From assembly GCA_937923465.1 (NCBI GenBank), contig CALDUB010000394.1, positions 1-48,379 on the forward strand: DNA of 48,379 bases. Reading direction: 5' to 3'. Below are positions 38,264 through 40,762 of the stretch, piece by piece (positions within the stretch are counted from its first letter, which is position 1; each line of letters begins with the position of its first letter). Origin of the DNA: an uncultured Saprospiraceae bacterium. Lineage in GTDB: Bacteria > Bacteroidota > Bacteroidia > Chitinophagales > Saprospiraceae. The notes under the pieces are model-generated. The model was not told where the DNA came from. It saw nothing but the letters and a program-made list of their open reading frames with translations, and did not search any database. The translations under genes were made by a program, and so were the position numbers.

Positions 38264-38887
38264 ATGAAAGAAAATTTAATATTAATACTATTGAGTCTAC
38301 TCTTTGTAAGTTGCTCTAAAGACGCAAAAAAAGAGACGGAAAAACCATTAATTGAACCTATTAGTTCATTAGAGGTACCAATAAATTTGATAGACAAAGA
38401 AGCCCTTTATTACGATACAAAGACATCACTTTGGACTCTTAATGGAGAGTTATTCTCTGGTTATGCCGTGAGTTATTTTCCAGATAGTACGCTCCTGCAA
38501 AAATTTGGTGTTTTAGAGGGAAGAAAGCAAAACGACCATACTAATTGGTTTCCTGACGGTCATATCAAACATTCAGCAAATTATCATAAAGGAAAGTTAC
38601 ACGGAGAAAAAAAATCGTTTTCTGTGGACTCGAGTCATATTTTAATTTCTCAGCTCAACTTCCATTTAGGCAAGGCACATGGCTATCAAAAAAAATGGTA
38701 CCCTACAGGCGAAATCTTCAAAATCATTCATTTTAATATGGGATTAGAGGAAGGTATCCAACAGGCTTTTAGAAAAAACGGTGATTTGTTTGCCAATTAT
38801 GAAGCGCGAGAAGGAAGAATTTTTGGTTTAAAGAGAGCTGCACTCTGTTTTGGACTGGAAGACGAAGAAATAAAGTATGCAGAGTAA
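38264..38887 (+). CDS. MORN-repeat (YwqK-like) lipoprotein
   Basis: The 207-residue protein has a lipoprotein signal peptide (LILLSLLFVSC, cysteine at 17). It then carries repeats of the MORN variant found in YwqK-type proteins, such as NGELFSGYAVSYFPDSTLL, FPDGHIKHSANYHKGKLHGE and YPTGEIFKIIHFNMGLEEGI. The C-terminal GRIFGLKRAALCFGL matches the usual end of these proteins in Bacteroidota. The name antitoxin is often attached to this family in databases, but there is no toxin partner here and no reason to assume that role. The function is unknown; membrane anchoring is likely. It lies downstream of the YHYH gene, which has its own terminator, and upstream of a large palindromic element. Confidence 0.9.
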   Translation: MKENLILILLSLLFVSCSKDAKKETEKPLIEPISSLEVPINLIDKEALYYDTKTSLWTLNGELFSGYAVSYFPDSTLLQKFGVLEGRKQNDHTNWFPDGHIKHSANYHKGKLHGEKKSFSVDSSHILISQLNFHLGKAHGYQKKWYPTGEIFKIIHFNMGLEEGIQQAFRKNGDLFANYEAREGRIFGLKRAALCFGLEDEEIKYAE

Positions 38888-39388
38888 GTAATGCCGCTTA
38901 GGTTTTCATTAAGGTAATGGGTCAAAACGGTGGATACTCACGTGGTGACTCAAAGTCGAATGTCGTCAACTTACGTGTCCGTATGGTATGGAGTGGCAGC
39001 ATACTGTTTTGTAGTTGCCAAGAATGTATGATAGAAAAGCGGATTTGGCGGATGATGCGGATTAGGGCGGATTTTTGGGTTAACACTTGTTCAAAATCCG
39101 CTTTAATCCGCCAAATCCGCATCATCCGCGTTTCAATCATGTATTCTTTGGATATTAATTATCGTTAGAAAGTTCTAACAAATCGATTCCTCCATGCGGA
39201 CACGTAAATTGACGACATTCGACTCAGGTGTCCGTAAGGAAAGTCACCTTGTGAGCAAAAGAGATGCATCGGTCGTTTTCACCCATTACCTTCATTAAAA
39301 TATGTTAAACCGTCCTTCCTAGACCATAGTAACTCAAAAATTCATATTACTTTCGTGTTTGAATAAGTTTTCAAACTAAACCACTAAG
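38888..39388. other. Spacer between two lipoprotein genes, dominated by a palindromic element
   Basis: About 400 of these 501 bases belong to the nested inverted repeat at 38903-39300. The remaining 88 bases on the right are AT-rich and should contain the leader of the TlpA-like gene. Confidence 0.7.
38903..39300. repeat. 398-bp nested palindrome with GCGGAT 9-mers
   Basis: Three nested pairs of arms are visible. The outer pair is 38903-38922 with 39281-39300 (ggtaatgggt with acccattacc at its core). The middle pair is 38955-38986 with 39192-39223, complementary at 30 of 32 positions (core gtcgaatgtcgtcaa). The inner pair is 39017-39044 with 39124-39151. Inside it, four GCGGAT words spaced nine bases apart on the left (39039-39071) face the complementary ATCCGC words on the right (39096-39129). 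No transposase or credible ORF is inside. It could be a non-autonomous mobile element of the MITE type, a structured RNA or a REP-like sequence. Confidence 0.85.
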
Positions 39389-40762
39389 ATGAAAAAACTA
39401 ATCATTGCTTTCTTCGCTTTTACGCTTTTCGCTTGTAATCAAGAGCCAAAAATAGAATATACCGTATTCTCTGGAAAGATAGAAAATGCAACTGCTGACA
39501 AGGTTCTTCTGGAAGGACAAGGCATGAAAAAAGAAATTGCAATCCGTCCTGACGGGACATTTGTAGACTCTATGGAAACTGCTACAAGTGGCTTTTACAC
39601 ATTTTCTTTGGGTAGAAATAAAGCAGATATGTATCTTAAGAAAGGTACAGATTTGTCGGTAGTTCTCGATGCTAAAGATTTTAGTGCCTCGATGAAATAT
39701 GCAGGCGCGGGCACAGTTGAAAACAACTATTTGACTGCCAAAAGAATCAATATTAGTAAGATGCAGGGAAATTACCGTAATTTATTCACCTTGGATGAGG
39801 CTGCATTTAAAGCAAAACTAGAGGAGATTAAATTGAGTAATGAAGCGGCTTTAGGTGCTCTAGAAAATCCAGATGCTACTTTTGTCAAAACTGAAATGGA
39901 AAATTTAAAATATGATTATTTTGCTCCGATGACAGACTATGAAGGAATGCGTGCACGGGTGACAAAAGATGAAAACTTTAAAGCTTCCGAAGACTTTTTG
40001 CCCGCTGAGCTAAAGAATATTCAATATGATAATATTGAAATCTATAATGCTTCTGACTCTTATCGCAATATGGCATTTGGTAGCATTTTGACACCAATCT
40101 TTGAGGGCTTAGATGACTTTAGTTCGATGACACCAGCAGAATTGAGTTCTATTGAAGCGATTAAAATCCCTGAATTGAAAGAGCAAGTAGTTAGTTATTT
40201 GGCAAAAATGGCATTGTCGCCTTCTAATCCTAACTTAACGGAGTTGTTTAATTTTTTCAAGTCAAATACAACTGACGAAACTTTAATTGCCGATATTACT
40301 GCTAATTACGACCAACTAAAGGATTTAATGAAAGGCAAGCCCTCCCCTACTTTCACAGATTACGAAAACCATGCGGGCGGGACGACTTCTTTGGCAGATT
40401 TAAAAGGTAAGTATGTTTATATTGATGTTTGGGCAACTTGGTGTGGACCTTGTAAAAGAGAAATTCCAGCTCTCAAAAAAGTAGAAAAGGAATTTCATAA
40501 TAAGAATATAGCTTTTGTGAGTACTTCCATTGATGTCGCTACGGCGCATGATAAATGGGCAGATATGGTGAAGAAAGAAGACTTGAGTGGTATTCAATTG
40601 ATTGCGGATAAAGATTGGAAATCGCAGTTTGTGGAAGATTATGGCATTAAGGGTATTCCAAGGTTTATTTTGGTTGACCCTGAAGGCAATATCGTAACTG
40701 CTGATGCGCCGCGTCCTTCCAATCCTAAGTTGGTGGAATTATTCAAATCTTTAAAAATCTAA
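39389..40762 (+). CDS. TlpA/ResA-like thiol-disulfide lipoprotein
   Basis: The 457-residue protein begins with a lipoprotein signal (AFFAFTLFAC, cysteine at 16). The N-terminal part (about 25-110) resembles the DUF4369 beta-sandwich that precedes many Bacteroidota thioredoxin-like proteins. A helical middle follows, and then a C-terminal thioredoxin domain starting at about 315. The redox motif WCGPC is at 351-355 (DVWATWCGPCKREIPALKK), and the cis-proline is in GIPRF at 424. Such proteins reduce or isomerise disulfides in the periplasm, for example during cytochrome maturation; the specific partner here is not known. It is a single-gene unit ending at a bidirectional terminator. Confidence 0.95.
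   Translation: MKKLIIAFFAFTLFACNQEPKIEYTVFSGKIENATADKVLLEGQGMKKEIAIRPDGTFVDSMETATSGFYTFSLGRNKADMYLKKGTDLSVVLDAKDFSASMKYAGAGTVENNYLTAKRINISKMQGNYRNLFTLDEAAFKAKLEEIKLSNEAALGALENPDATFVKTEMENLKYDYFAPMTDYEGMRARVTKDENFKASEDFLPAELKNIQYDNIEIYNASDSYRNMAFGSILTPIFEGLDDFSSMTPAELSSIEAIKIPELKEQVVSYLAKMALSPSNPNLTELFNFFKSNTTDETLIADITANYDQLKDLMKGKPSPTFTDYENHAGGTTSLADLKGKYVYIDVWATWCGPCKREIPALKKVEKEFHNKNIAFVSTSIDVATAHDKWADMVKKEDLSGIQLIADKDWKSQFVEDYGIKGIPRFILVDPEGNIVTADAPRPSNPKLVELFKSLKI

Follow-up and report, generated by a model that had tools for sequence, protein, structure and literature searches.

A palindromic element in a Saprospiraceae genome, probably a composite MITE carrying a gene-less hairpin of the GxxExxY type

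Palindromic MITEs are known in bacteria, and Y1 (RAYT) transposases are known to act on hairpins. Short repeats phased at regular intervals have been described in other settings. In Coxiella, the S23p gene of the 23S rRNA intervening sequence (IVS) is reported to be preceded by three heptamers in tandem (PMC4990558). The TAACTGA heptamers described by MacGregor occur in Beggiatoaceae, Cyanobacteria, and Bacteroidetes, scattered between genes and, in the sections cited here, without a known carrier (PMC4679880). In the open-licence literature in PubMed Central, no description was found of hairpins around GxxExxY genes, or of ISL3 MITEs of the kind considered below.

The element considered here is in an uncultured Saprospiraceae bacterium, within a stretch of 48,379 nt (positions 1 to 48,379 of contig CALDUB010000394.1; "the window" below). 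From its letters alone, it had been proposed to be either a mobile element without its own transposase or a highly structured RNA. This interpretation is partly supported: the first half is borne out, the second is not. It can probably be read as a composite MITE, possibly of ISL3 type, carrying a gene-less hairpin of the type found around GxxExxY genes.

The palindrome, its borders, and its copies

The palindrome is real, and three nested pairs of complementary arms are present, as originally predicted. The predicted length of 398 bp (38903-39300) needs correcting: the element proper is 378 bp, and the perfect 8-bp direct duplication on either side of it is not part of the palindrome. The features are, in order (word positions and the extent of the shell tip were read by eye):

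38903-38929 and 39274-39300: outer arms, 27 nt, 89% identity
38905-38912: left copy of the target-site duplication (TTCATTAA), 8 bp, identical to 39291-39298
38913-39290: the element, 378 bp, probably a composite non-autonomous transposon (MITE)
38913-38929, + strand: left terminal inverted repeat of the shell (GGTAATGGGTCAAAACG)
38947-38957: GACTCAAAGTC, tip of the minimal shell hairpin, 11 bases, intact in the window on the left only
38954-38986: left middle arm, the outer part of the core, starting AGTCGAATGTCGTCAACTTACGTGTCCG and common to copies with either type of shell end; 33 nt, 94% identity (31/33) to the right middle arm
39020-39075: left inner arm, a phased hairpin arm of GxxExxY type, with GCGGAT at 39039, 39048, 39057, and 39067; 56 nt, 79% identity to the right inner arm
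39076-39092: loop between the inner arms, 17 bp; site of the GxxExxY gene in gene-bearing relatives (L108, L040/L109), empty here
39093-39148: right inner arm, with ATCCGC (GCGGAT on the opposite strand) at 39096, 39106, 39115, and 39124
39192-39224: right middle arm
39274-39290, - strand: right terminal inverted repeat of the shell (GGTAATGGGTGAAAACG)
39291-39298: right copy of the target-site duplication (TTCATTAA), 8 bp

The high identity claimed for the middle arms stands, with a slightly different count (30 of 32 had been given). Each inner arm does have four GCGGAT words; their spacing is 9, 9, and 10, so that the 9-base period ascribed to them is valid for two of the three steps. The predicted fold energy of 38850-39350 is -210.4 kcal/mol, compared with -121.1 +/- 6.4 for 100 dinucleotide shuffles (z -13.97). 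There is no sign of protein-coding content, again as predicted: among listed ORFs with 80 aa or more, the only one that lies across the element (38917-39168, 83 aa) has no match to a Pfam family. The neighboring + strand ORFs (38264-38887 and 39389-40762) have lipoprotein-like N-termini by eye, in keeping with the placement between two lipoprotein genes that had been noted; the element begins 25 bp past the stop of the upstream one.

A BLASTN search, suggested with the original prediction, does find a dispersed family. There are 80 matches in the bacterium's own genome (5.75 Mb in 502 contigs); since a palindrome matches itself on both strands, each place may be counted twice, and the matches were merged by hand into 40 places, the window included. 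The family is built of modules. Minimal shells, 89-92 bp long, have just the two outer ends with a short hairpin, which is closed by GGTGACTCAAAGTCACC in L025 and L029-L031 and by a variant tip in L020 and L021. In full copies, the core sits between the two halves of this hairpin tip. By eye, GACTCAAAGTC flanks the core on both sides in L004 and L023 but occurs only once in the minimal L025, a pattern that resembles insertion of the core into a hairpin tip. The same core is found in two types of shell: type A, with ends GGTARTGGGT (the window, L002, L023), and type B, with ends GGTTCTTTATGA (L004, L006, L008, L026, L027, and others). The middle arms (AATGTCGTCAACTTA...) were seen only inside shells, and none were seen around gene-bearing hairpins.

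Several smaller features recur among the copies. The core arms look swapped between L005 and L006 on the one hand and L024 and L026 on the other, with CTTTCCTTACGGACACGTGAG at the left in some and its complement at the right in others, as though arm-to-arm recombination had inverted them. Very short palindromic inserts, of CAGCCTGCCCCG...CGGGG and CCGA...TCGGGACAAGCTGT types, break the arms in L022, L032, L027, and L028, and in L358 such an insert lies beside an element; they look like a further family of micro-elements, and a short search found none in the window. A 13-base motif, CGTGTCCGYAWGG, occurs in the window at 38974-38986, 39192-39204, and 39227-39239, and could form a mini-hairpin (CTTACG-TGTC-CGTAAG). 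It has 19 exact matches in the genome, and 48 with at most one mismatch (18 for the reversed control). It was considered as an independent element, but 18 of the 19 exact matches are on contigs known to bear the family (the exception is C303), and it is therefore treated as part of the family.

Inspection of the borders for target-site duplications, also suggested at the outset, gives 8 of 8 matching bases at the window copy, and 8-bp duplications are found at sister copies too. Within the window, identical 8-mers at the same distance occur at 5 of 47,971 positions. Among type A candidates with both ends, 6 of 10 have 7-8 of 8 flank bases matching, compared with 0 of 90 mismatched flank pairs; for type B the figures are 11 of 32 and 2 of 992. 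In these counts ends were paired by script and every candidate pair was kept, evident chance pairs included. The remaining four type A candidates are L020 and L030, which have the repeat shifted by one base; L031, which has none; and L076, probably a chance pair rather than an element. The downstream gene was used to look for an unoccupied counterpart of the window site in five genomes (G001, G002, G003, G004, G006), and none turned up; the best match to this gene (G004, 38% identity) and a partial one in G001 (also 38%) are too distant.

The duplications bear on one alternative: a REP/BIME-like palindrome, moved by a Y1 (RAYT) transposase, whose nesting arose by repeated hairpin-directed insertion. 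The layering of hairpin within hairpin would suit such an enzyme, as would the GACTCAAAGTC copies that bracket the core in L004 and L023. Against this, the shell combines terminal inverted repeats with 8-bp duplications, which is what a DDE element would be expected to show, and Y1 transposases are not known to make such a target duplication. We consider this origin highly improbable.

A second alternative is a functional structured RNA, or an element in transcript processing, kept by selection on its structure. Its very stable fold (z about -14) speaks for this, and there are a few base pairs in which both sides have changed and pairing is kept. When the window fold was compared with eight other copies, 716 pairs were unchanged; one-sided changes kept pairing in 42 cases and broke it in 69, two-sided changes kept it in 10 and broke it in 10, and 321 pairs were gapped. 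Breaks thus outnumber compensated pairs, which does not look like selection on pairing, and the check for compensatory changes proposed with the original prediction goes against an RNA. RNAalifold, applied to the inner hairpins alone, gave 11 pairs, 2 of them with two-sided kept changes, but the MAFFT alignment of these repeats is poor and this result is given little weight. The window has no Rfam match at the gathering threshold; below it, two miRNA families match the inner hairpin (best 29.2 bits, with 80 required), as any long hairpin might. A scan limited to the sigma-70 consensus found no promoter or terminator pattern near the element. There is very little probability left for the RNA, and the palindrome presumably matters as DNA instead.

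Shell ends and candidate transposases

Dispersed copies, 8-bp duplications, and the lack of any recognizable gene inside agree with the predicted mobile element without its own transposase. Movement by some protein, of whatever kind, is presumed. The ISL3 transposase family was searched for in the bacterium's own genome and in one of the same genus (G001). Four domain matches in the former correspond to two ISL3 transposase genes, on contigs C310 and C260; G001 has no ISL3 match. The C310 protein matches Pfam DDE_Tnp_ISL3 (5.9e-37), and scores above the cut-off of the NCBIfam ISL3 model. In this insertion sequence (IS), the transposase lies between 23-bp inverted ends starting GGYTCTTTATGATTTT; the C260 copy has ATTTGTTA on both flanks, by eye.

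The comparison of shell ends took in 9 of the 10 type A candidates (omitting L076) together with those 11 of type B whose duplications match at 7-8 of 8 bases. The 22 type B ends match the IS ends at a median of 16-16.5 of 23 positions (range 14-20), and on this likeness an ISL3 MITE is a good explanation for the type B shells. Between the 18 type A ends and type B ends, the median is 10 of 19 matching positions (range 3-14), compared with 5 for shuffled type B ends (95th percentile 8, maximum 11). Compared directly with the IS ends, type A ends match at a median of 6-7 and a maximum of 8 of 19 positions, about the shuffled level. The window's own two ends match any type B end at no more than 12 of 19. 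The window shell would then be a relative of type B with an equal duplication length; because its ends resemble type B and not the IS ends directly, ISL3 is only a lead by way of type B, and not proof.

Another transposase may be involved, since G001, of the same genus, has a degenerate A-like shell (L145) but no ISL3 match. No autonomous copy with type A ends was found by an end-pattern search and a transposase search limited to the ISL3 family. Allowing at most two mismatches, the type A end pattern has 63 matches, compared with 53 for the reversed control, so the weaker matches are mostly chance. A repeated end match at the starts of contigs C72, C74, and C476 was considered as a possible IS and rejected: in C72 and C74 it falls, by eye, within an ABC-transporter-like ORF.

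Type B ends also enclose unrelated palindromic inserts, for example CATCCACACATTGGG...TGTGGATGAT (L115, L116, L120, L122, L129), although both ends are in view only in L129 and the other four have just one. The shell may therefore pick up hairpins repeatedly.

The core hairpin and GxxExxY genes

A pattern of three phased CGGAT words has 67 matches in the bacterium's genome, and none for the reversed control. Merging these by hand gave 35 places, 32 of them with sequence examined. The shell motif, with at most three mismatches, is on both sides of the array at 15 of the 32, on one side at 3 (two of them at a contig edge), and on neither side at 14. Two of these 14 shell-free hairpins enclose a GxxExxY gene (C199:1209-1721, and one on C384). 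The third GxxExxY gene found in the genome (C349) lies in arms built of a different word, ATGATT, and each of its flanks has a best lag of 9. Like these loci, the window hairpin has complementary arms with words phased at 8-10 bp, and since the C199 gene is surrounded by the same CGGAT word in the same layout, the inner hairpin of the window appears to be a form of the GxxExxY-holding hairpin that lacks the gene. The 17-bp loop holds none, which makes the core a gene-less derivative at most. The palindrome had been described as a single long cruciform; its arms are indeed nested, but it is not a single thing, being rather a MITE shell with a core hairpin of GxxExxY type.

Are such hairpins usual around GxxExxY genes? 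Among sampled genomes of the host's order, 81 of 119 have a GxxExxY match. A 5-base phased word is found on both flanks at 12 of 33 order loci, compared with 0 of 57 off-gene windows; the other 21 fail this test. Mismatched flank pairs reach its score of 4 in 115 of 1056 cases, because several loci share words. In a lag test, 33 of 64 flanks of order loci are above threshold, compared with 4 of 59 controls, and the best lags include 8, 9, and 10 in 5, 9, and 7 flanks respectively.

A second set, from named genomes, was made up of the best 80 of 558 relatives of one query set, and is to that extent a biased sample. By their titles these are mostly Bacteroidetes, with Planctomycetes, Acidobacteria, Cyanobacteria, Chloroflexi, Proteobacteria, and one Methanothrix MAG. 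Two loci with flanks too short were dropped, leaving 78 to be tested. Of these best-matching loci, 38 have phased word pairs on both flanks and 40 fail; control windows have them in 2 of 142 cases. The inverted-repeat score exceeds the maximum of the same 142 controls at 47 of the 78. The lag test is weaker in this selected set (67 of 157 flanks, 23 of 143 controls), with best lags of 8-10 in 30 flanks and 8 controls. Arm words vary by locus: in the best 80, they include CACAG, CAGAG, CAAAG, and CGCAA. CGCAACG and TAGGAGT-like words were also found at GxxExxY loci by a looser first flank test, which was replaced by the word and lag tests because several of its high scores came from other repeats. 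At most loci, gene ends were set to 1501-1821 or 1501-1848 (1501-1851 in the named set), a few bases off the listed ends.

The phased word CACAGAG was found in 8 of 10 genomes searched, and not in the reversed control. One genome, G124, has 39 matches, one pair of which encloses a GxxExxY gene (C1:2910689-2911039). Judging from coordinates, seven other close opposite-strand pairs there are about 30-130 bp apart, with no room for a gene. Pairs with and without a gene in the same genome present the same picture as in the window's genome.

These loci allow a further alternative to be weighed, namely that the window holds an ordinary MITE of some other DDE transposon, whose hairpins are its own degenerate sequence and whose GCGGAT words have nothing to do with GxxExxY. 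There is precedent in the palindromic MITEs of other bacteria (PMC2229807), and type A ends, for which no autonomous partner was found, compare with the ISL3 IS only at the shuffled level. But the CGGAT hairpin is free of any shell at 14 of 32 places and encloses a GxxExxY gene at two of them, and GxxExxY genes of other phyla have analogous arms. An unrelated MITE is on balance unlikely, if less far-fetched than the RNA or Y1 readings.

A composite element fits these observations better, and could have arisen as follows. The outer shell (GGTAATGGGT...ACCCATTACC) would be moved in trans by a DDE-type transposase, inserting with an 8-bp duplication; the best lead for this enzyme is the ISL3 family, with its two copies in the genome assembly, and an ISL3 transposase may move shells of the window's type. 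The core, a hairpin of phased repeats like those found elsewhere around a GxxExxY gene, would derive from a GxxExxY element but lack the gene. It may have been captured at the tip of the shell's small hairpin, after which shell and core would have spread as a single unit.

A second family of small genes shows a parallel pattern. Of 60 genomes from the order, 51 have genes for four-helix-bundle proteins (23S-IVP; TIGR02436), and the window's own genome gives 8 matches; the L215 protein also matches Pfam 23S_rRNA_IVP. Phased word pairs are found at 17 of 28 loci (of 30; two had flanks too short), whereas the controls gave 1 of 53 for off-gene windows and 84 of 756 for mismatched pairs. The periodicity threshold is reached by 55 of 69 flanks, with the best lag at 7 in 34 and at 14 in 7, and by 9 of 54 controls, one of them at lag 7. 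The inverted-repeat score is above the maximum of 53 controls at 23 of 33 loci. Examples of these 7-bp phased arms are GTATCAG, CAGGAGT, and GTAGTGG (seen among L187, L191, L202, L207, L212, L215, L219, and L220). The Coxiella heptamers are an independent instance of this 7-bp pattern.

As for the GxxExxY protein itself, the two scanned both match Pfam PDDEXK_3, and D63, E73, K75, and Q87 are invariant across 39 sequences, which we take to be the pattern expected of a PD-(D/E)XK active site. An AlphaFold model is confident (pLDDT 96.5). A Foldseek search with it returned nothing at E 0.001 or below; the best matches were SSO0001 chains (E 2.8e-3), presumably a Cas4, followed by a Cas4 protein (7.4e-3). 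In VIA-align, SSO0001 scored Z 10.0, the Holliday-junction resolvase Hjc 7.8, and restriction enzymes slightly less; the program itself cautions that a score below 8 may reflect no more than a common arrangement. A role for GxxExxY proteins on cruciform DNA is an idea that would fit this modeled fold rather than a result.

It is conceivable, and put forward here tentatively, that there are two parallel kinds of mobile hairpin with arms of short phased repeats, one with a period of about 9 that carries GxxExxY genes and the other with a period of 7 that carries 23S-IVP genes. In each, the encoded protein would move or copy the hairpin or cruciform by acting on it once extruded; copies that lack a gene, such as the window core, would be moved in trans, and could be captured by ordinary transposons. 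GxxExxY and four-helix-bundle genes are common in the host's order and often lie between phased-repeat arms, each with its own period, a pattern of which the open-licence literature searched gave no description. If the proposal is true, these genes and the scattered short-repeat hairpins share an explanation as mobile hairpins, and the small GxxExxY nuclease family acquires a testable role.

Comparison with described systems

The window element shares with ISL3 IS and MITEs its terminal inverted repeats starting GG, its 8-bp target duplications, and its dispersed copies without a transposase gene, and its type B sisters have ends like those of the genome's ISL3 IS. It differs in that it has no transposase gene, in that its own ends match those of the IS only at the shuffled level, and in having a core that is not known to be related to the IS. 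REP/BIME palindromes, and MITEs of bacteria in general (PMC3733652, PMC2229807), are likewise dispersed, palindromic, and non-coding, but the window element is longer (378 bp), is layered, and has 8-bp duplications.

With GxxExxY loci (TIGR04256 / PF13366 PDDEXK_3), the inner hairpin has in common complementary arms phased at 8-10 bp and, with the C199 locus in particular, the CGGAT word; its loop, however, holds no gene, and it is embedded in a transposon shell. The 23S rRNA IVS (S23p/IVP) is also a stem-loop with short phased repeats, with a small gene in its loop. The window element has a period of 9 rather than 7 and is outside rRNA, lying between protein ORFs; it has no S23p/IVP gene, its inner ORF has no Pfam match, and the two protein families are unrelated. 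The TAACTGA heptamers, as far as the cited sections describe them (PMC4679880), are similar in being short direct repeats between genes and different in having a period of 7; they might be kin to the IVP-type arms. As a MITE, the window element is of an ordinary and known kind; the interesting part is its core and the two-period pattern, and the center of the palindrome hints at a little-described kind of mobile hairpin.
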